A stretch of DNA of 21,069 nucleotides from a virus: positions 1-21,069 of IMG/VR virus record IMGVR_UViG_3300042351_000223; one strand, 5' to 3'. Shown here one piece after another: positions 1 through 8,101 of this stretch (position 1 is the first letter of the stretch; the number at the start of each line of letters is the position of its first letter). The notes under the pieces are model-generated. The model ran no database searches. It had not been told where the DNA came from and saw only the letters and a program-made list of their open reading frames with translations. The position numbers and the translations under genes are program-made.

Positions 1-19
1 GTTTTGGGTAGGGAGTCAT
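1..19 (-). CDS. Start of next gene, cut by window edge (possibly small terminase)
   Basis: An ATG at 19-17 follows the HNH stop (TGA, 31-29) by nine bases and opens a frame that reads M-T-P-Y-P-K before the window ends. Position suggests a terminase small subunit, because short HNH proteins commonly sit directly before terminase genes in tailed phages. Only six codons are visible, so the identity rests on gene order alone. Confidence 0.3.
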
Positions 20-28
20 TTTACTTTT

Positions 29-325
29 TCACAGCCCCCCCATTCCGAGGATTTTATTTTCCTCTTCAGGCCATCCATCCAAACCGATTCGCGGTTTAGG
101 CTTGAACCCCATATCATCAAGTGTTTTGATGTGATGGCATTCCTTACAGAGCATTTGGAGGTTGGTCGGATCGTTATCGCCACCCTTTGACAAGGGCATG
201 ATGTGATCCAACTCCTCTCCTAGCCTGACTATTCCCTTGGCTTGGCAATGCGTACATAGCGGAGACTCCATCATTCTGAGATGACGAACCTTCTGAAGCC
301 GCCATCCGCTTATGCGTTTAGAGAT
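29..325 (-). CDS. HNH endonuclease, terminase-adjacent type, probable AUC start
   Basis: Small HNH nuclease. With the start proposed here (98 aa) the zinc ligands are C24/C27 (LCTHC) and C60/C63 (CKECHH), and the HNH core is D40-H41 with N55 and H64. Such proteins next to terminase genes assist DNA packaging or cleavage in several phages. The first ATG is at 274, but the family's N-terminal block (SKRISGWRLQKVRHLR) is encoded upstream in the same frame. No ATG, GTG or TTG lies between 274 and the in-frame stop at 358-356. A strong GGAGG (337-333) sits 7 nt before an ATC codon at 325-323, which would give an I/M-S-K-R-I-S-G-W start. If only canonical starts are allowed, the gene is 29-274 and lacks that block. 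Nuclease identity is firm; the start is inferred. Confidence 0.85.
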   Translation of the reverse strand: MSKRISGWRLQKVRHLRMMESPLCTHCQAKGIVRLGEELDHIMPLSKGGDNDPTNLQMLCKECHHIKTLDDMGFKPKPRIGLDGWPEEENKILGMGGL

Positions 326-337
326 GATGAAACCTCC
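323..337 (-). promoter_or_regulatory. Strong Shine-Dalgarno before a non-AUG (AUC) start
   Basis: On the minus strand GGAGG occupies 337-333, followed by 7 nt and ATC at 325-323 in the HNH frame. It is among the strongest SDs in the window yet has no canonical start codon at the right spacing in this frame. This is what decides the proposed HNH start. Confidence 0.5.
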
Positions 338-385
338 GCAAAGATAGTGGTCAACTTATGCGTATGCGCTCTTGACGATTGCATT

Positions 386-757
386 CTAGATCACTTCCAC
401 ATAACTTTGCAACTGTTTTCTACCACTACTTACATAATTTTTTAATGTATGTAGGTTGATATCTAATATTTTGCATACTTTAGTTGGCGATGTGTTCTCA
501 ACATAGAACCATTTGATTGCGATTCTATTCACATTGGACAGATGACGCATTGCCCCCTCAAGTAGCTCGGCATCAGGCAAATCAAGGGAAAAGCTGTTCG
601 GATTGCCATTCCATACTTCTGTCGGACGATACCAACGGAACATTGGATGTACTGACCCATAGCCCCTGCGAGGTCGGACATACACAGACCAATTCTTTAG
701 TCTTGCATCTATCTTGTGCTCACCCTCTTGTAGGGCAAAGAAGTCAACATAATCCAT
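386..757 (-). CDS. Q-like late regulator with C-terminal HTH
   Basis: A 123-aa basic protein. The N-terminal part has the RLKNWSVYVRPRRGYGS and FRWYRP motifs that I associate with short antitermination/late-regulator proteins of proteobacterial phages. The C-terminal third (about residues 75-120) looks like sigma-70 region 4 or a Q-type helix-turn-helix (VCKILDINLHTLKNYVSSGR). The ATG at 757 begins eight bases after the TET/JBP stop; the open frame extends upstream into that gene but lacks a better start. Its place after the nin-like genes and before HNH/terminase is where lambda-like phages carry Q, so it probably switches on late genes. It could instead be a RinA/ArpU-type activator. I recognise the family by pattern only. 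Confidence 0.6.
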   Translation of the reverse strand: MDYVDFFALQEGEHKIDARLKNWSVYVRPRRGYGSVHPMFRWYRPTEVWNGNPNSFSLDLPDAELLEGAMRHLSNVNRIAIKWFYVENTSPTKVCKILDINLHTLKNYVSSGRKQLQSYVEVI

Positions 758-764
758 CTTTAGC

Positions 765-1562
765 CTATTGTTTCCAATGGTTGGCAAATGCTTTGAGTGG
801 ATAGAAGACCAAAGAGTTCCTGTATCCACCTTCTATTATCGGATGGATTGGTGTTACTCCATGCACATTACGCCATGCAGGATACACCAACATTGAATTG
901 TCCCTGCTGTCAACAGTTGCCCCATAGTCAGGAACAGTTGTATTGCCGCCTCTAGCGTTCTTCTTCTTGGCAATAATCACATTGACGCATCCTTCTAGAT
1001 TAGCGGCATCTCTGTGGAAAGGTGCGGAGATATTGAAGTTGCTGATACTTGATGTGAACAACTCTCCAAAGCGGAATTCAGGCGGGACTTGTTCTGTGAT
1101 GATTCTTTTCTGCGTTTCATAAAGCTCAGGAGCGATCTCTTGCATGAGCTTCTCAGATTCTTTGCATAGCAGGAGCATGGCTTTGACAAATGTCTGCGCT
1201 GACTTAACCTGATGTACGCTAGAGATCGCAGGATACACCCTCTTCATATGTGGCTTGGGTGCTATTGATCCAAGTATTGTGCTGTATTGCCGAATGATCT
1301 GGTACTTGTTCTTGCCATTCTCATCTTGACCCATTGGCTTCTTCCTGTCCATGAAAGACTTTGGCACTCTCTCAGATAGGAATTCAGCATTGGCAACATC
1401 AGCAAGCTGTTTGACACGCCCTGTCATCTCTTTGATGTAGAAGCCAACAATCTTATCGTCTGACAGAAATATTGTGTCCTCTGTGACATTTGGCTCAATA
1501 TCACCGCATACATCGCCAATCTTTATGCTGTGCTTGACCTGTTTGAGTTCCACATAGTTCAT
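765..1562 (-). CDS. TET/JBP-family 2-oxoglutarate/Fe(II) DNA base dioxygenase
   Basis: A 265-aa protein whose C-terminal half carries the double-stranded beta-helix signature of the TET/JBP family: H183-x-D185 (FHRDAANLEG) and H234 (NVHGVTPI) bind Fe(II), and R248 (GYRNSLVFYPL) would bind 2-oxoglutarate. Family enzymes oxidise the 5-methyl group of 5-methylcytosine or thymine in DNA, and phage members act before glycosylation of the resulting hydroxymethyl base. Residues 1-150 are a helical and mixed N-terminal region I cannot assign. The ATG overlaps the glycosyltransferase stop (ATGA), so the two are translationally coupled. All visible catalytic residues are intact. Substrate is open: no methyltransferase gene is in the window, so the mark may come from elsewhere in the phage, from the host, or the target may be thymine. 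Confidence 0.85.
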   Translation of the reverse strand: MNYVELKQVKHSIKIGDVCGDIEPNVTEDTIFLSDDKIVGFYIKEMTGRVKQLADVANAEFLSERVPKSFMDRKKPMGQDENGKNKYQIIRQYSTILGSIAPKPHMKRVYPAISSVHQVKSAQTFVKAMLLLCKESEKLMQEIAPELYETQKRIITEQVPPEFRFGELFTSSISNFNISAPFHRDAANLEGCVNVIIAKKKNARGGNTTVPDYGATVDSRDNSMLVYPAWRNVHGVTPIHPIIEGGYRNSLVFYPLKAFANHWKQ

Positions 1563-2287
1563 AACTGTTCTTTCACAACATTCTTGGCCATTTGAATCTC
1601 TGTGTATTTAGATTTTCTATTCTCATTGATAGAAAAAATATCGGGATATAACTTACAAAGCATCAGAGAGGCTTGTCTTTCAAGGGTTGCTCTATCTGCG
1701 ATCTCTTGCATACCGCCTTTATTGGTGTAGTTGTTTGTCAGGCAAGATATGAAATTGAAACGCGCAATATTTCCCATGTGCTTATAAAACTTTACGCTTC
1801 TCTCATAGTCCGTCTTTGTTTTCAATTGGCACAGAACCCTATGGTCTTTGGTTGATTTGAAGCCAAAAAGATTAGCAACAATGTATGTTGCACCTATATC
1901 GATTGTCTTGCTCATAAAAAATTTGTTTGAGCTTGGATAGACACCAAAAGAATTGATTTGTTTATTATTGCAATAATTTGTTATGAATCCAAACAGCTTC
2001 TTCAAATCCTTTGTCATCAAAGACTGTATCTGCTTGATGTCATCTTCAATGACAATTACAAAAACTCCGACATCGAAATAATTTTGAATGTAATTAAATT
2101 TATCAGTTGCGTTATCTGTTTGGCACATAACAAGGTTGTACTCTGGGCAAATTTGCTTATAAAGAGCCATATCTTGCTCATCGCTTATGAATAAATAAAT
2201 ATCTTTCTTATCGAAATCAGATAGCAAACTCAAAGTAAGTTTGTTTATTGAATCTGATCTCCGATGAGTTGGTATTGCAATCTTCAT
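1559..2287 (-). CDS. TET-associated glycosyltransferase (TAGT-like)
   Basis: A 242-aa GT-A-like glycosyltransferase predicted to add a sugar or similar group to hydroxymethylated bases in DNA. The N-terminus MKIAIPTHRRSDSI fits the first strand and nucleotide loop of GT-A folds. E81-D82-D83 in VIVIEDDI is the expected DxD-like metal site. The C-terminal block around 158-200 (KTDYERSVKFY, ARFNFISC, NKGGMQEIADRA) is the pattern I associate with the TET-associated glycosyltransferase family. It sits between the HAD-kinase and the TET/JBP gene, overlapping both by ATGA junctions, which matches the predicted order of activated donor, transfer and base oxidation. DNA here is clearly AT-richer than in flanking phage genes. 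The donor cannot be read from sequence. Confidence 0.8.
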   Translation of the reverse strand: MKIAIPTHRRSDSINKLTLSLLSDFDKKDIYLFISDEQDMALYKQICPEYNLVMCQTDNATDKFNYIQNYFDVGVFVIVIEDDIKQIQSLMTKDLKKLFGFITNYCNNKQINSFGVYPSSNKFFMSKTIDIGATYIVANLFGFKSTKDHRVLCQLKTKTDYERSVKFYKHMGNIARFNFISCLTNNYTNKGGMQEIADRATLERQASLMLCKLYPDIFSINENRKSKYTEIQMAKNVVKEQL

Positions 2288-3222
2288 ATCAAATCCGTCA
2301 TGTTGTTAACAACAGAAATGTATTTGCTGTTGTATTTGCAAACCCGCAATCCTTCTGCAATGGCATATCTGATTACATCTTGGCCATACTTATCTGAAAT
2401 TATTTTTGCCTGTGAATAACTTTGCTCGTATGCAAGCAAACTGAAAAAAGCCTTCCCTGCATCCGTCAGATAGCTTCCAAAAATACCTTTGTAGTTCGGA
2501 TCGATGCAAAATAATTTATTGTCTTGGACAAGAATATTAGTTGTTGAAAGATCGCCATGAAAGAAAGATGATTCATGTTCTTCTAACCCATCAATGATGG
2601 TCTGCACTTTGGCTGTCGCGTATTCAATTCTTGGCAAATTCCGTTTGTAGCTGTCAAAAGAATAATTTTTAATTGATTTATTCTTGTACGACTCAATCAA
2701 ATCAATAATTTCATGCGCTGTTGGCTTCTTGTGTTCTTTCACTCTTTCAAGAATGATCATCTCATCGTTGCAGAATAATATTCTCGGTGTCTGCACGATG
2801 CTATCTGCCGCCTGATACCAAGCGTATTCCAATTCTGCGTTTTTTGTTTTCTTGATTACTGTGCTGTCTGTGAAGATTAGCTTATTTTTTGTGAAAGGAC
2901 TCAATAGGCTTGTAAAATCAGCGTCTTGGCTTACAGTCATGTCATCAATGTAGATCGCGCCATATTCTTTGTTGAAAGAAATGCAATCATGCGGAACATT
3001 GTGCAAATTGAGCCAAGTTTGAATATCTTTATGATATTTTTCAATCTTTTGACTCTCTGACAAACCGAATCTTGAGCCACGCGCTGTCACAATTTTGATT
3101 GTTGGATTGATTGTGCTTTTCAAATCCTGCAAGCGTTTTATCAACGCAAGATTAGGCATCCTGTCCATGATGCGCGTATTTCCAATTGCCAATGTCCCAT
3201 CAAAATCAACAACAACGATCAT
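2284..3222 (-). CDS. Fused HAD phosphatase and APH/choline-kinase-like kinase
   Basis: A 312-aa two-domain protein. Residues 1-110 are a small HAD phosphatase: D6-F-D-G-T10 (motif I), T46 in IVTAR (motif II) and Y-I-D93-D94 (motif IV). Residues 115-312 form a compact aminoglycoside-phosphotransferase/choline-kinase fold: a hinge-like MIILERV segment, catalytic loop H222-G-D224 with N229, and I-D241-P as the metal-binding DFG equivalent. The family phosphorylates small hydroxyl compounds (sugars, amino sugars, choline, ethanolamine). The HAD part, with WLNLHNVPHD and AIYIDD, resembles small HAD proteins of capsule loci as I remember them. The gene overlaps both neighbours by ATGA. I infer that it prepares a phosphorylated substrate for the nucleotidyltransferase encoded just upstream. 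The substrate is unknown. Confidence 0.75.
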   Translation of the reverse strand: MIVVVDFDGTLAIGNTRIMDRMPNLALIKRLQDLKSTINPTIKIVTARGSRFGLSESQKIEKYHKDIQTWLNLHNVPHDCISFNKEYGAIYIDDMTVSQDADFTSLLSPFTKNKLIFTDSTVIKKTKNAELEYAWYQAADSIVQTPRILFCNDEMIILERVKEHKKPTAHEIIDLIESYKNKSIKNYSFDSYKRNLPRIEYATAKVQTIIDGLEEHESSFFHGDLSTTNILVQDNKLFCIDPNYKGIFGSYLTDAGKAFFSLLAYEQSYSQAKIISDKYGQDVIRYAIAEGLRVCKYNSKYISVVNNMTDLI

Positions 3223-3740
3223 AGTGCCTCGTAATAATCTTCCACATCACCTAATTTGATAAATGTGTTTTCTTGGATAACTTTCGCGCCAATCATTCCT
3301 GATGCCAAACTGTTCACATCTCTCATGTTGTCTAATAAATTAGACATGGATTTGACGAAATAAATTCCACTACATTTATTTTTTGAAATGTTGTCTTTTT
3401 CATTCACAGCAATCAATCTTGAATCCTCAATCAGAATTGAGCCGTATTTAGGCTTCTCGCTATTGAAGAAAAATAGTGTGTCGCCATCAAAATTCAATTC
3501 TGGCAAACCAAACGGGATGATGTCACAGTCAACAATCAAGCAATCTTGCTCATGCGCTATTTCTGTCAGCGTATCTTTCCTGCTGTTTGTTTTTGCGTTA
3601 CCTAGCAGATTTGCATAAGGGAAAATCTTAAAGATATGCTCAATGATGCGTTTGTCCCTGTAATAAATAAATTGTTTATCAACAGGACTGATTTCCTTCA
3701 TCCTTGTGCCAGAGCCGCCAATGGTTACAAAGATTTTCAT
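3219..3740 (-). CDS. Short sugar/alcohol-phosphate nucleotidyltransferase
   Basis: A 173-aa protein with the signature loop of nucleotidyltransferases, G8-G-S-G-T-R-M14, then K22 and D71-C-D73 (metal-site region), SGIYF near 124-128 and a C-terminal GDVEDYYEAL. The family joins NTP and sugar-1-phosphate, or phosphocholine-type substrates, to form an NDP donor. At 173 aa it is well below the 230-300 aa usual for the family, so it is a minimal form without the usual C-terminal extension. Its ATG begins one base after the ParB-like stop, and its stop overlaps the HAD-kinase start (ATGA). Paired with an APH-type kinase it recalls AmgK-MurU and capsule activation pairs. Function is inferred from motifs and context. 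Confidence 0.75.
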   Translation of the reverse strand: MKIFVTIGGSGTRMKEISPVDKQFIYYRDKRIIEHIFKIFPYANLLGNAKTNSRKDTLTEIAHEQDCLIVDCDIIPFGLPELNFDGDTLFFFNSEKPKYGSILIEDSRLIAVNEKDNISKNKCSGIYFVKSMSNLLDNMRDVNSLASGMIGAKVIQENTFIKLGDVEDYYEAL

Positions 3741-3741
3741 T

Positions 3742-4347
3742 TCAAACTTTATCTTTTTGTTTCCGCAGGAAATCTAAGATCATGTACCCGACATAAGCGT
3801 TCTGACCACGCCAATATTTGACCAGTTCTTGCGCCTCTGAATAGTGTTCAGGCTCAAATTCAATTTGTATTGCCTTTCTGACACCATCAGCCATGTCTTG
3901 AATCTTGTCATCAACATCCTCGTCATCAAGGACAGAATAATCAATTGCGCTTTTAGCCAGTTCTGATTCATCAAAACCGAGCAATTCAATTTCAAAGTCA
4001 CAATTTTTCAATTCTTCAATTTCAAGGCCAAGGATATCCATGTCCCACCCTGCATTCAGAGCCAATTTGTTGTCAGCAATGACATAGGCCTTTTTCTGAG
4101 TTGCTGTCAGATGTGAAATTTCAATAGTCGGAACGCTTTCCAACTTCAACAATCTTGCCGCCATTACCCGCCCATGCCCTGCCAAGATGCCATTCTCTCC
4201 ATCCAATAGGACAGGATTCGTGAACCCGAACTCACGGATACTTGCGGCTAATTGTGCAATCTGCGATTCAGAGTGTGTGCGGCTGTTGAGTGCATAGGGA
4301 ATCAACTGTTCAGTTGCCTTATATTTGATTGCCAATTTGTTTGTCAT
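3742..4347 (-). CDS. ParB/sulfiredoxin-fold protein without a methyltransferase domain
   Basis: A 201-aa protein with a ParB-N-like domain at residues 10-100: LIPYALNSRTHSESQIAQL, G57-H-G-R60 (nucleotide-binding loop) and ADNKLAL. In phages this domain is usually fused to a DNA methyltransferase. Here the methyltransferase is absent and is replaced by an acidic linker (D141-D147) and a short C-terminal segment with YWRGQNAYVGYMI. It is first in the modification operon, directly behind the predicted promoter at 4372-4400, with an SD (AGAAGG) 6 nt before the ATG. The family includes DNA-binding and NTP-using members, so it may guide the modification enzymes to DNA or act as an enzyme itself. 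ParB-like proteins next to TET/JBP genes are a known association. Its exact role is unknown. Confidence 0.75.
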   Translation of the reverse strand: MTNKLAIKYKATEQLIPYALNSRTHSESQIAQLAASIREFGFTNPVLLDGENGILAGHGRVMAARLLKLESVPTIEISHLTATQKKAYVIADNKLALNAGWDMDILGLEIEELKNCDFEIELLGFDESELAKSAIDYSVLDDEDVDDKIQDMADGVRKAIQIEFEPEHYSEAQELVKYWRGQNAYVGYMILDFLRKQKDKV

Positions 4348-4371
4348 ATACGCCTTCTGATTAGATAAGGA

Positions 4372-4400
4372 ATCTTAGCATATACCTTATATATTCCCAA
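4372..4400 (-). promoter_or_regulatory. Predicted promoter for the DNA-modification cassette
   Basis: On the minus strand TTGGGA (4400-4395) and TAAGAT (4377-4372) are separated by 17 bp, and the -10 carries an extended TGC just upstream. It lies about 25 bp before the ParB-like ATG, inside the widest gap (4348-4453) of the left gene block. The cassette may therefore be expressed apart from the nin-like genes. Found by eye; no other support. Confidence 0.45.
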
Positions 4401-4453
4401 ACAAGACACCCCCTAATTTTTTTTTCTGTATGCCTTACCACCACCCCCCCCAC

Positions 4454-4801
4454 TCATCGCTCTTTTTCAAAATAATTTTGCAAATCAGGGACTTCAATGT
4501 TGTGAGGCCACAATTGAAGCATCACCAAACGCTGAACAGTCTTGCGGTGAGCCTTCTGCCAGAGTATTTGCCTTTCCTCCTTAGACAAGTTGCTACCTTG
4601 GTCGATCTCCATGTGGCATCTGTAGCAAAGGCTTGCAATCAGGTTGTCATCAGCTTTGATAGAACGCCCTTTGCCGCCTCCAAAATTAGTATGTGCCGCA
4701 ACTACAGTTCCGTCATCAGCACCACAATTCTGACAAGCAATTTCTCTTGCATTGCGGAGCAAAGTGGTGCTACGGATGTATTGATGTTTAGGGAATTTCA
4801 T
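4454..4801 (-). CDS. YbcO-like HNH nuclease (DUF1364 type)
   Basis: A 115-aa protein with C23-x2-C26 (ACQNCG), H37 (AAHTNF), N53 and C59-x2-C62-H63 (LCYRCHMEID). This matches the compact zinc-bound HNH nuclease of the YbcO/DUF1364 family found in nin regions of lambdoid phages, where it sits beside NinB and is thought to act in recombination or resolution. The ATG overlaps the preceding gene's stop (ATGA). The C-terminal 40 residues are helical and basic. A second reading, as a general HNH restriction-like nuclease, is less likely given the neighbours. A large open frame on the opposite strand here is a shadow. Confidence 0.75.
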   Translation of the reverse strand: MKFPKHQYIRSTTLLRNAREIACQNCGADDGTVVAAHTNFGGGKGRSIKADDNLIASLCYRCHMEIDQGSNLSKEERQILWQKAHRKTVQRLVMLQLWPHNIEVPDLQNYFEKER

Positions 4802-5256
4802 GCTATTTCAACAACTTTGTCGTTCCTAGATTTAATGTAGTTTTTGGTTTTCTGAATCATTTTTTCAAAATCGCATCTAGGAATACTTGCCTGTTGAAGA
4901 TCGGCATATTCAAGCAAATCTCTAATCGCCTGAATCCCGATTCCACTCAGTCCCATTTTTTTTGTTTTCTCATAGCGTATTGCCGCCTCATGCAAAGCTG
5001 TCTGAGCTAAATTACAACTTTGTAATGCTTCGTTTCCTATGCCATTGCTTGCCATCATCTCAGTTAGATTCAAAACATCCACCAGAGTACGCCAATCCTG
5101 AACAGTACCCATTCCGCGAATCATAGCGTCCAAAGCCGTCAGTTCTGATAAACGCAATTTGTTCAAATCTTTTCGCTCAATAAATGCGACACCTGTGATG
5201 GCGTGTTCAATTGGGTTAACTAATCCCCAATGCTTTCTTTTTGTTTTCTTTCGCAT
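4798..5256 (-). CDS. Conserved phage protein of unknown function, helical
   Basis: A 152-aa protein, strongly basic at the N-terminus (MRKKTKRKHWG), then predicted to be nearly all helical (LRLSELTALDAMIRGMG, ALHEAAIRYEK, AIRDLLEYADLQ). I recall similar proteins of this length in the replication/nin regions of Burkholderiales phages, but no function. It lies between the small membrane protein gene and the HNH nuclease gene and is coupled to the latter by ATGA. The N-terminus follows an AAAGAAAAAC purine tract, a weak ribosome site. No catalytic motif is visible. Confidence 0.65.
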   Translation of the reverse strand: MRKKTKRKHWGLVNPIEHAITGVAFIERKDLNKLRLSELTALDAMIRGMGTVQDWRTLVDVLNLTEMMASNGIGNEALQSCNLAQTALHEAAIRYEKTKKMGLSGIGIQAIRDLLEYADLQQASIPRCDFEKMIQKTKNYIKSRNDKVVEIA

Positions 5257-5259
5257 GAT

Positions 5260-5421
5260 TTAATTGTTTTTCTTTGAAGCATTGACCATCCCAAAAACTA
5301 CAAATCCAAACAAGATCAATCCAAAACGCGCAAATTCACTCCACTCAGATGGGTCATATTGCCAATTGATAAATGCCGCAAAAAAATAAGATACGCCAAA
5401 AGATATTGCAAGACTCTTCAT
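5260..5421 (-). CDS. Small two-helix membrane protein
   Basis: A 53-aa ORF (MKSLAISFGVSYFF...NASKKNN). Two hydrophobic stretches, about residues 4-18 and 33-47, are separated by a polar loop (NWQYDPSEWSEF), and it ends with a lysine-rich tail. The ATG overlaps the stop of the RHH gene (ATGA), and it fills the otherwise empty 5257-5417 gap exactly, which supports it as real. Function is unknown; small inner-membrane proteins in early regions are often host-takeover or exclusion factors, but nothing specific shows here. Confidence 0.6.
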   Translation of the reverse strand: MKSLAISFGVSYFFAAFINWQYDPSEWSEFARFGLILFGFVVFGMVNASKKNN

Positions 5422-6666: not shown

Positions 6667-6856
6667 TTTTTTTCCTTTGAATATTCATTCTTTTTCTCAA
6701 ATCATCAGCGGCAGACTGACCACGCCTCTTTGCTATGTCCGACAATATCTTGCGCCACCACTCTAATGCTTCGCCCTTGCCTTCTTCCAGTTGCTTCTTT
6801 CTGTATCTGGCAATCCATTCCCTCGCTTCGCTGTCTTTTAGGTGTTCCTTGTCCAT
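6650..6856 (-). CDS. Small conserved phage protein (DKEHLKDSEAREW type)
   Basis: A 68-aa protein, highly charged, with MDKEHLKDSEAREWIARYRK, a WWRKILSDIAKRRG segment and a terminal DDLRKRMN. I recall such short proteins in proteobacterial phage replication/nin regions; function unknown. AGGGG lies 6 nt before the ATG at 6856. It lies largely inside the 3' half of another open frame (6705-6959); its protein-like composition suggests that this is the true coding frame here. Confidence 0.6.
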   Translation of the reverse strand: MDKEHLKDSEAREWIARYRKKQLEEGKGEALEWWRKILSDIAKRRGQSAADDLRKRMNIQRKKNATRH

Positions 6857-6959
6857 CTAAGTCCCCTGTTGCTTCAAGAGCTTTGTCAATAATATTCTCA
6901 GGATAAATGGCTCCGTCATAAACTTTGTCCAAGATTCGCATTGCATCAAAATAATTCAT
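6705..6959 (-). CDS. Small phage protein whose 3' half overlaps the next gene
   Basis: An 84-aa ORF. The first 37 residues (MNYFDAMRILDKVYDGAIY, PENIIDKALEATG) look like a genuine phage protein. From about residue 35 on, the translation (Q/R/S-rich, no clear pattern) looks like a shadow of the 68-aa frame, with an overlap of about 150 bases. Either the true product ends in a non-conserved tail, or a +1 shift near 6860 joins it to the 68-aa frame. Its ATG at 6959 follows the preceding stop by one base; the upstream ATG at 6983 lies inside that gene. Confidence 0.4.
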   Translation of the reverse strand: MNYFDAMRILDKVYDGAIYPENIIDKALEATGDLDGQGTPKRQRSEGMDCQIQKEATGRRQGRSIRVVAQDIVGHSKEAWSVCR

Positions 6960-6960
6960 T

Positions 6961-7191
6961 TTAGAATTCATCCTTTTCTTCATACCATTGAGCTACTGTC
7001 TTTGGCTTAAGGTCTGGTAAAGATGAAAGAGCTTTTTTCTGAGGCTTACTGTTCTGCCATTGGTGGTACGAGCATTTAGGTTTTTCCCCATCACAATGAA
7101 CAGCCCATCTACTCCCGCAACCATCTACTGAGCAGTAAATAGAAAATTCAAATTCTTCTTTTCTTTTTGATTCTGGTTTAGCAAAGCTCAT
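6961..7191 (-). CDS. Small Cys/His (zinc-finger-like) protein
   Basis: A 76-aa protein with C20 and C25 in the motif YCSVDGCGSRWAVH, plus C33 and C40-x2-H43 (KCSYHQW), a likely zinc site. The C-terminal half is linker-like (PQKKALSSLPDLKPKT) and ends acidic. The ATG at 7191 overlaps the stop of the next zinc-ribbon gene. Two adjacent small zinc proteins suggest a nucleic-acid or protein adaptor role in early infection. Not recognised as a named family. Confidence 0.6.
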   Translation of the reverse strand: MSFAKPESKRKEEFEFSIYCSVDGCGSRWAVHCDGEKPKCSYHQWQNSKPQKKALSSLPDLKPKTVAQWYEEKDEF

Positions 7192-7382
7192 TGTTTAGCC
7201 TTTTGAGAAATTCGATTTTGCTTTAGATTTTTTCCTGTTATCTTTTTATTCCAACAGGATTGGCAAATCCATTTAGACCCCATATCGATGCCGCCCTCTG
7301 GAGGCTTGCTTGTGTCGCATCGTGAGCAAAGTTTAAATTTATGTAATGGCTGATTCGCGCCAAGTGCAATTGAATGCATCAT
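7188..7382 (-). CDS. Small zinc-ribbon protein
   Basis: A 64-aa protein with two CxxC knuckles, C19-x2-C22 (LCSRCDTSKPPEGG) and C40-x2-C43 (WICQSCW), a treble-clef/zinc-ribbon layout, followed by a lysine-rich tail. Its ATG overlaps the preceding stop (ATGA). Small zinc ribbons in phage early operons may act in transcription or recombination; nothing here decides which. Confidence 0.6.
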   Translation of the reverse strand: MMHSIALGANQPLHKFKLCSRCDTSKPPEGGIDMGSKWICQSCWNKKITGKNLKQNRISQKAKQ

Positions 7383-8101
7383 GTTTTCTTCTCCTTGAGT
7401 TTGGCTTCAATAACATAATCGTGGAACACAATACCCTTGGTCACATCGCCAACTTTATGCGCCTTGACCCAGCAAGTTTTGCCCGTTTTCAAACGCCTCA
7501 AATGCCCTCTACGGTCATGCAATCTAGGGCTTGCGTGTGTGCCCCCTTGATGCTCATTTTTGGGCTTAGAGGCTTCCACCACCACCGTAGTCCAGTCGTA
7601 AGTAGGCATTTTGCCTTCTTTAATTTTTCGTTGATTAGTAAATGTAGGTTTTGTAAAAGGTTGATGCGCTTGTACTGATTGCGTTAACGATTCAAGCCAA
7701 ATACCGCAAAAAGAAAGCATTGTTTCTGCCATTTCTTTAGATATTTCTTTGCCATCGTCTATTGGCCCGTAACGCAACATATTGCCATCAACCACATAAA
7801 CCATAGGCGGGAATTTAGTTGGCATACGCCCTGTTACACCTTTCCATGTAGATACCACAATGCCTTCTTCAGGGTTAGTACCAACCACCATAAAAATAGT
7901 GTCATAAGACGCATAAGTTTTGGTTTTACCGCGCCAAACCACAATGTTTTTTTCAAACGGAGGGCGGTACTTCATTAATGGTTCAGTAACCGCATGGCTT
8001 CTATCGTCAACATAACCCGACAAATCAAACCACTGAATTTCGGTAGGGTCAATGCCGCCGTCAAAAGCCATTTTGATAGTCTCGCGAATTAACGGGGTCA
8101 T
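7379..8101 (-). CDS. Conserved phage protein of unknown function
   Basis: A 240-aa protein starting MTPLIRETIKMAFDGG. The ATG at 8101 overlaps the previous stop (ATGA); the open frame extends 10 codons upstream with a start that is not preferred. The middle is beta-rich (IVVWRGKTKTYASYDTIFMVV). The C-terminal GGTHASPRLHDRRGHLRRL plus TCWVKAHKVGD block recurs in phage proteins from memory, often near replication genes. The histidine/arginine-rich block could bind nucleic acid. No enzyme motif is clear. Confidence 0.65.
   Translation of the reverse strand: MTPLIRETIKMAFDGGIDPTEIQWFDLSGYVDDRSHAVTEPLMKYRPPFEKNIVVWRGKTKTYASYDTIFMVVGTNPEEGIVVSTWKGVTGRMPTKFPPMVYVVDGNMLRYGPIDDGKEISKEMAETMLSFCGIWLESLTQSVQAHQPFTKPTFTNQRKIKEGKMPTYDWTTVVVEASKPKNEHQGGTHASPRLHDRRGHLRRLKTGKTCWVKAHKVGDVTKGIVFHDYVIEAKLKEKKT

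Follow-up and report, generated by a model that had tools for sequence, protein, structure and literature searches.

The question raised by positions 765 to 4347 of a 21,069-base virus record (called here the window, meaning the whole stretch analysed) is what five genes of different enzyme families could accomplish together. Five open frames fill this part of the minus strand, in the order ParB-like protein, nucleotidyltransferase, HAD-APH fusion, TAGT-type glycosyltransferase (TAGT) and TET/JBP-type dioxygenase (TET). We infer, for the chemistry as for the base, the sugar and the nucleotide, that this cassette probably hydroxylates thymine in place and then glycosylates it with a nucleotide sugar made by the phage itself. 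An earlier reading of the sequence (the original prediction) had proposed a cassette for DNA hypermodification with its own donor activation; beyond it, a frame formed by ParB and TET holds the three middle genes, called here the trio, as an exchangeable insert, and the likelier target is thymine.

Over its full length the window matches, at 99.75% identity, part of a second virus record, which has 36,273 bases (G001). Because both ends of G001 carry the same 28 bases, this record is possibly a complete genome, and its terminase is about 61% identical to the terminases of HK022-type phages. All five minus-strand frames were found where the original prediction had placed them. They are kept in L006, with protein identities of 81-95% to the window, and in L139, L141 and L051; L142, a contig that ends after the TAGT gene, keeps four (31-71% identity for these last four contigs). 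They are therefore not chance open reading frames, and the five genes are confirmed as real and correctly placed. The coupling of four of the five genes by ATGA overlaps was likewise found, as three 4-base overlaps at 3219-3222, 2284-2287 and 1559-1562, and a single base separates the ParB gene from the nucleotidyltransferase gene. The promoter predicted ahead of the cassette was not recovered: a scan of positions 1-5300 for the sigma-70 consensus listed nothing resembling a promoter ahead of the ParB gene; its 10 sites in total compare with 13.8 in shuffled sequences. Table 1 collects the features.

Table 1. Genes of the cassette and extent of the exchangeable insert, in window coordinates
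Feature	Positions	Strand	Place in the locus and basis
TET/JBP-type 2-oxoglutarate/Fe(II) dioxygenase, 265 aa	765..1562	-	Right-hand frame gene of the exchange slot; PF12851, residues
TAGT-type glycosyltransferase, 242 aa	1559..2287	-	PF20691, PHROG 842
Fusion of HAD phosphatase-type (about 1-100) and APH/choline-kinase-like (about 110-312) parts	2284..3222	-	Profile, model
Short sugar-phosphate-type nucleotidyltransferase, 173 aa	3219..3740	-	Predicted fold; weak sequence profiles
ParB-like protein, 201 aa	3742..4347	-	Left-hand frame gene of the exchange slot; PHROG 15396
Exchangeable insert: nucleotidyltransferase, HAD-APH, TAGT	1559..3740	-	Low GC; other modules in other ParB-TET loci

Of the cassette proteins, TET and TAGT alone exceeded the curated Pfam cut-offs, the other three remaining below theirs. 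TET matched PF12851 (Tet_JBP) with 40.3 bits (cut-off 34.9), and its residues H183, D185, H234 and R248 were invariant in 14 of 14 aligned TETs; we take the first three to be the HxD...H iron ligands and R248 to be the 2-oxoglutarate-binding arginine. A profile built from the 14 TETs matched human TET2 (E 0.004). TAGT matched PF20691 with 30.2 bits (cut-off 27.5), a match confined to residues 1-90, and PHROG 842 (beta-glucosyl-HMC-alpha-glucosyltransferase) with E 6e-8 over residues 1-235; its Asp82-Asp83 were invariant in five of five sequences. Searches of the PDB sequences by phmmer with TET and TAGT, and with the TAGT profile, gave nothing useful. The original prediction had named profile comparison as a check that could refute both assignments; the check was run and, with both Pfam cut-offs passed and human TET2 reached by the profile, the assignments stand. 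The label 'queuine tRNA-ribosyltransferase' given to the TET family by PHROG and RefSeq was rejected, as the Tet_JBP profile and the residues fit; several phage TET/JBP proteins (H3, H7 and H28; PHROG 6059) bear the same label, which looks like a spread annotation error. Regarding the ParB-like protein, it matched PHROG 15396 (E 2.5e-54) and PHROG ParB-like families with up to 185.8 bits, and fell short of the cut-off for PF02195 (ParB_N; 22.0 bits, cut-off 26.3). The label 'DNA methylase' of its relative in Prochlorococcus phage MED4-184, which is 47% identical to it, was set aside.

For the HAD-APH fusion and the nucleotidyltransferase, structure prediction supported the identities first proposed. 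The HAD half matched the EcbF-BcbF phosphatase family TIGR01689 (E 7e-10, 39 bits) without reaching its cut-off of 162; judged by this profile, it is a relative and not a member of that family. A profile of the fusion also matched 1xpj, listed as a hypothetical protein (E 7e-12). The PHROG label 'phosphoheptose isomerase' for this half was regarded as an annotation artefact, profile and residues being those of a HAD phosphatase. In the predicted model of the fusion (predicted local distance difference test, pLDDT, 84.8), the kinase half gave Z about 15 to LicA and APH(3')-Ia, its best fold match being 3dxq (Z 15.3, root-mean-square deviation (rmsd) 3.4 over 204 residues), and Z 12.7-15.3 to choline kinases and aminoglycoside phosphotransferases among the 50 matches listed. 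The model thus assigns it the APH/choline-kinase fold, and its sequence score to PF01636 (APH; 13.2 bits) lies below the cut-off of 23.2. Residues D6, D8, T46, K85, D93, D94, K124, H222, D224, N229 and D241 were invariant in nine of nine sequences, and H222, D224, N229 and D241 are presumably the HGD...N...D catalytic residues of this fold. The model of the nucleotidyltransferase (pLDDT 77.0) had RmlA among its top Foldseek matches (E 1e-8) and gave near ties, at Z 11-13, with GlmU, LicC, HddC and UDP (uridine diphosphate)-glucose pyrophosphorylases; superposed on 5z0a it reached Z 13.1 and rmsd 3.1 over 166 residues. The predicted fold is of the RmlA/GlmU/LicC type, its catalytic-type residues being invariant in eight of eight relatives; the sequence profiles were weak overall (PF12804, 14.8 bits, cut-off 27). 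Neither family had a relative in two scans of bacterial genomes, made with strict patterns that do not show absence from bacteria.

To what extent these genes belong together was judged from 111 TET loci, assembled from two pattern scans of viral contigs (the second yielding the best 80 of 567) with L051, L139 and L141 added; the neighbours of the TET relatives were read and then classed by profile survey. The sample includes near-copies, and its module frequencies are therefore not those of nature. A ParB-like gene lies upstream of TET in 105 of the 111 loci, and what lies between the two varies. A single FkbM-type methyltransferase gene, the commonest module sampled, is found in 32 loci (L021-L027, L031, L037 and others; also in MED4-184), and suggests O-methylation of the hydroxymethyl base. 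Twenty loci hold a P-loop kinase, a GATase and an ADDT (amino acid:DNA transferase family) gene, with 8 more carrying part or a variant of that set; a lone TAGT is present in 20, and 13 have no module. The order seen in the window is found in 9 loci, six of them near-copies of the window's, and a further five-gene set, outside these 9, is contained in contig L140 as read over its whole length. A gene for a glycosyltransferase-like protein of about 300 aa is the module in 6 loci (L033, L034, L039, L040, L042 and L137), lying after TET and not before it in L042; no match over a Pfam cut-off was found for three members, nor any PHROG match for one. In the 3 remaining loci TET stands alone, at or near a contig end. 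The neighbourhood search thus recovered the five-gene order, and TAGT adjoins TET in the window and in all nine five-gene loci of the survey, but the description of TAGT enzymes as the usual partners of TET/JBP proved too strong for this sample, in which 29 of 111 loci have one.

Modules also differ between close relatives: TETs 77-78% identical to that of the window carry the ADDT set (L075), FkbM (L076) and a lone TAGT (L077). A tree of 66 TETs requires 29 changes of the module label, where the possible minimum is 5 and shuffled labels give 39. The window's module was gained or lost at least three times, counting starred branches alone; label changes do not separate gain from loss. This tree was built by a quick method after dropping 4 of the 111 rows (short or unlabelled) and then 95%-redundant rows, and adding three isolates; L005 represents the window, and L051 sits on a long branch, its placement being unsure. 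Because the contents of the slot vary and the labels change so often on the tree, it follows that phages retain the ParB-TET frame and frequently, but not randomly, exchange the module. The base composition of the locus was also measured. The G+C fraction (GC) is 0.426 in the ParB gene, 0.445 in the TET gene and 0.435 over the G001 genome; it is 0.361 in the trio (TAGT 0.339, HAD-APH 0.375, nucleotidyltransferase 0.366). Only 5 of 3410 equal-length segments of G001 have a GC below that of the trio, every one overlapping it. Among 21 hand-picked loci, the mean GC of the module genes was below that of both flanks in 19 of the 20 with both flanks, the exception being L098. Some of these gene families may, however, be rich in AT by nature. 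No ADDT or aGPT-Pplase gene, of the kind present in sister loci, was found among the nine scanned proteins of window positions 29-5256. Directly downstream of TET, positions 386-829 encode a small protein with a weak match, below cut-off, to sigma-70 region 4, whose translation more likely begins near 757 than at the GTG listed for it.

The trio appears to travel as a unit. Between L051 and the window, TET is 25-31% and ParB 32% identical, whereas the nucleotidyltransferase is 48-49%, HAD-APH 53-54% and TAGT 59% identical. Six trio TAGTs form one branch (Shimodaira-Hasegawa-like approximate likelihood ratio test, SH-aLRT, 100) apart from 17 lone TAGTs, drawn from 17 of the 20 lone-TAGT loci, which group with a support of 93, not starred. 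Both results are as expected if the trio TAGT is matched to a donor made by its two neighbours, the lone TAGTs presumably using a donor supplied by the host. The cohesion of these two neighbours was complete, as the nucleotidyltransferase gene was directly followed by HAD-APH in 23 of the 23 contigs in which the pair was found. Ten of these have all five genes, L142 ends after TAGT, and 12 show neither ParB nor TET in the stretch available. In the 11 of these 12 that were read, the neighbours include glycosyltransferase-like, GDP (guanosine diphosphate)-mannose dehydratase, DUF6065 and 2-oxoglutarate (2OG)-Fe(II) oxygenase-like genes. The pair is therefore not specific to DNA modification and, given such neighbours, looks like a general phage donor unit that is used here for DNA. 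It should be noted that a small 2OG-Fe(II) oxygenase-like protein is encoded near the pair in L066/L145, L147, L149, L150, L151 and L153, mostly larger phage contigs that also carry DUF6065 and glycosyltransferase-like genes (PF13640 and DUF6065 were tested in L147, the rest by eye); these contigs perhaps hold another hydroxylate-then-glycosylate system. In L143 the pair is immediately preceded by a GDP-mannose 4,6-dehydratase-like gene (6759-7952), and a fragment of such a gene lies beside HAD-APH in L052 (1070-1255), a hint that the donor could be a GDP-sugar.

Isolated phages contain relatives of this set. In Synechococcus phage S-CBWM1, gp8-gp12 consecutively encode TET, TAGT, HAD, nucleotidyltransferase and APH kinase, annotated as SNF2 repair protein, hypothetical protein, phosphoheptose isomerase, glucose-1-phosphate thymidylyltransferase and hypothetical protein. 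TET, TAGT, NTP_transf_3 and APH pass the Pfam cut-offs (APH barely, with 23.3 bits against 23.2); HAD does not. The enzyme kinds of the window other than ParB are thus neighbours here as well, but HAD and APH, fused in the window, are separate genes, the 243-aa nucleotidyltransferase has no BLAST match to that of the window, no neighbour is annotated as ParB, and TET is part of a longer protein. The separate HAD and APH and the unmatched nucleotidyltransferase therefore indicate that the same kinds of function were assembled differently. A distant HAD-APH (24% identity) also occurs in Agathobaculum phage AB434P2. Close to it are another kind of nucleotidyltransferase, which is cytidylyltransferase-like and has heptose-1-phosphate adenylyltransferase as its nearest model (below cut-off), and a gene annotated as deoxyuridylate hydroxymethyltransferase; this annotation suggests that the decorated base in AB434P2 is 5-hydroxymethyluracil. 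Taken together, the 23 adjacent pairs, the six-TAGT branch and the neighbours in S-CBWM1 and AB434P2 support the proposal of a donor-activation module, which had been made from the window alone.

Which group would be activated is less clear-cut, the main rival to a sugar being a choline-type alcohol. HAD-APH and the nucleotidyltransferase could make a compound like CDP (cytidine diphosphate)-choline, -ethanolamine or -glycerol, as LicA and LicC do, the phospho-alcohol being transferred by TAGT or the CDP compound being used elsewhere. The top fold matches of the modelled kinase half are choline kinases including LicA (Z 14.3-15.3), the nucleotidyltransferase model scores LicC (Z 11.8) level with sugar nucleotidyltransferases, and the AB434P2 partner also matches glycerol-3-phosphate cytidylyltransferase. 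However, the pair is partnered by a TAGT that groups with it, sugar-1-phosphate models are the nearest to the S-CBWM1 nucleotidyltransferase (below their cut-offs), the dehydratase genes of L143 and L052 accompany the pair or HAD-APH, and CDP-choline synthesis offers no evident role to a HAD phosphatase; we consider this route improbable. A product that decorates a virion protein or a host glycan, the TET neighbourhood being a chance of operon building, appears more improbable still. Such a product would suit the 12 pair contigs whose available stretch lacks TET, several of which have glycosyltransferase-like, dehydratase or 2OG-Fe(II) oxygenase genes, but not the finding that TET lineages far apart from each other carry the trio, whose TAGTs form a branch of their own, between ParB and TET, nor the frequent occupation of the same slot by ADDT genes, nor the presence of the same enzyme kinds beside the S-CBWM1 TET in another layout.

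The base itself was approached through the enzymes that would supply a substrate to TET. TET needs a 5-methyl group, which thymine has and which cytosine acquires only from a methyltransferase; hydroxymethylated precursors usually come from the thymidylate-synthase family. No member of that family was found in 16 and then 22 records (36 of these 38 holding TET), nor in the five TET isolates. Cytosine-C5 methyltransferases (PF00145) were present in 2 of 44 records and then in 3 of 22 more, and were missing from the window, from G001 and from the five isolate records with TET. Among the 21 TET records of at least 30 kb, 3 were positive (1 of 4 with FkbM, 2 of 4 without module) and none of the 13 with TAGT, ADDT, GT300 or trio modules; Fisher's test for 0 of 13 against 3 of 8 gave p 0.042, the groups having been chosen after the data were seen. 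Because PF00145 is lacking from all 13 sugar or ADDT records, thymine would be a likelier substrate of TET than 5-methylcytosine, and with no thymidylate-synthase family member and with ADDT in sister modules on the same ParB-TET frame, hydroxylation of thymine in place is the better reading. The same cassette could nevertheless act on 5-methylcytosine supplied by the host, or by a methyltransferase of a family other than PF00145, and place its sugar on 5-hydroxymethylcytosine. TET-dependent cytosine hypermodification does occur in phages, TAGT resembles a beta-glucosyl-HMC-alpha-glucosyltransferase PHROG, and five TET records on the ParB-TET frame carry a PF00145 enzyme, three without module (L110, L133 and L138, that is G053, G059 and G070) and two with FkbM (L026 and L027). 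Reliance on host 5-methylcytosine would, however, be expected to give sparse modification, and the sister modules are of the ADDT type, which is known in connection with 5-hydroxymethyluracil; together with the distribution of PF00145, this leaves the cytosine route unlikely, though the most credible of the alternatives.

Several observations weigh against thymine glycosylation with a phage-made sugar. PF00145 was the sole route to 5-methylcytosine searched, and this base could be host-made, quite apart from the five records with such an enzyme. The choline-kinase and LicC (phosphocholine cytidylyltransferase) matches mean that what is activated may be an amino alcohol and not a sugar, and about half of the pair contigs (12 of 23) have no TET in the available stretch, several of them placing the pair among glycosyltransferase-like genes. 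With 173 aa, the nucleotidyltransferase is smaller than is usual for its fold, and the signature loop (residues 9-17) is modelled with low confidence. The S-CBWM1 TAGT falls outside the six-TAGT branch, near the TAGTs of phages Baee and Altadena and on long branches, and long branches come together in the TAGT tree. Lastly, clustering of the module label across the TET tree is weak, as 27 of 500 shuffles gave a value as low.

On balance, we still favour thymine hydroxylation followed by glycosylation, which would proceed as follows. Phage DNA would be replicated with ordinary nucleotides before being modified. TET would then hydroxylate a pyrimidine 5-methyl group in the DNA, the conversion of thymine to 5-hydroxymethyluracil being likelier than a reaction on 5-methylcytosine, and TAGT would place a sugar on the new hydroxyl. 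To supply this sugar, the HAD half would strip the phosphate from a sugar phosphate and the kinase half would phosphorylate the sugar elsewhere, by analogy at C1, although the kinase may act first; the nucleotidyltransferase would couple the resulting sugar-1-phosphate to a nucleotide to give the donor, and the decoration may in this way be independent of host UDP-glucose. ParB may target the modifying enzymes to phage DNA or organise them on it, and the decoration presumably protects against host nucleases. More tentatively, and with somewhat less than even confidence, we propose that ParB-TET is a general slot for swapping the chemistry of the DNA coat, in which hydroxylation is kept and a sugar, an amino acid, a methyl group or nothing is added, the window holding a phage equivalent of base J that comes with a sugar supply of its own.

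If these proposals are true, a small phage carries in less than 4 kb everything needed to turn a sugar phosphate of the cell into a decoration on a DNA base, relatives have exchanged this route, within the one slot, for different chemistries, and thymine hydroxylation in place would be indicated in phages. The swaps would yield sets of matched phages whose decorations differ chemically, with which one could ask directly which host nucleases are blocked by each decoration, and the enzymes would be possible tools for labelling DNA with unusual sugars. The question can already be tested, as isolated phages carry relatives of these genes (S-CBWM1, Baee, MED4-184 and Tonitrus).

Regarding known systems, Iyer and colleagues reportedly catalogued phage TET/JBP-TAGT gene neighbourhoods in 2013. 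Mycobacterium phage Baee has ParB, TET and TAGT in one run, as the window does, but a deacetylase gene follows TAGT and no donor-activation genes adjoin, where the window has the nucleotidyltransferase and HAD-APH; the window TAGT is also on another branch. A gene annotated as glucosaminyl deacetylase follows TAGT both in Baee (gene 4) and in Arthrobacter phage Altadena (gene 64), which suggests that N-acetylglucosamine is added and deacetylated in place. ParB-TET-TAGT neighbourhoods and TET-linked thymidine hypermodification sets are thus already known. The 'thymidine hypermodification' set of Rhodococcus phage Tonitrus (PMC11955845), predicted to act on thymine, has ParB-like and TET/JBP-like genes near its head, as here, but aGPT-Pplase2/ADDT-type, kinase and other genes in place of glycosyltransferase and donor activation. 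No description of the donor-activation trio in a ParB-TET frame, of the five-gene set or of the exchange slot was found in searches of the open-access literature.

Parallels for the supply of the donor exist in bacteria. AmgK is an APH-family sugar kinase and MurU a nucleotidyltransferase, and bacterial heptose routes use similar phosphatase, kinase and nucleotidyltransferase steps. In the Pseudomonas MupP-AmgK-MurU sugar salvage, of which MupP is the HAD phosphatase (PMC5371407), the same three kinds of enzyme act in series, from a sugar-6-phosphate to a nucleotide sugar; the pathway consists of separate proteins that serve cell-wall recycling and has no DNA target, and membership in it is not claimed for the window. 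In T4-like phages with RB69-type arabinosylation, phage genes are thought to help make UDP-arabinose, so that a phage glycosyltransferase is again joined by phage genes for a special nucleotide sugar (PMC6024577). As described there, that system differs in acting on hydroxymethylcytosine incorporated during replication, in having no TET and in drawing its donor genes from other families. Shewanella phage Thanatos, reported to carry a pentose on cytosine (PMC12838424), is a further precedent. In the formation of base J in kinetoplastids, thymine in DNA is hydroxylated in place by a JBP dioxygenase and then glycosylated by a glucosyltransferase, as proposed here for the window. Base J synthesis uses the UDP-glucose of the cell; the system is eukaryotic and has no donor-activation genes, whereas the cassette would bring its own.

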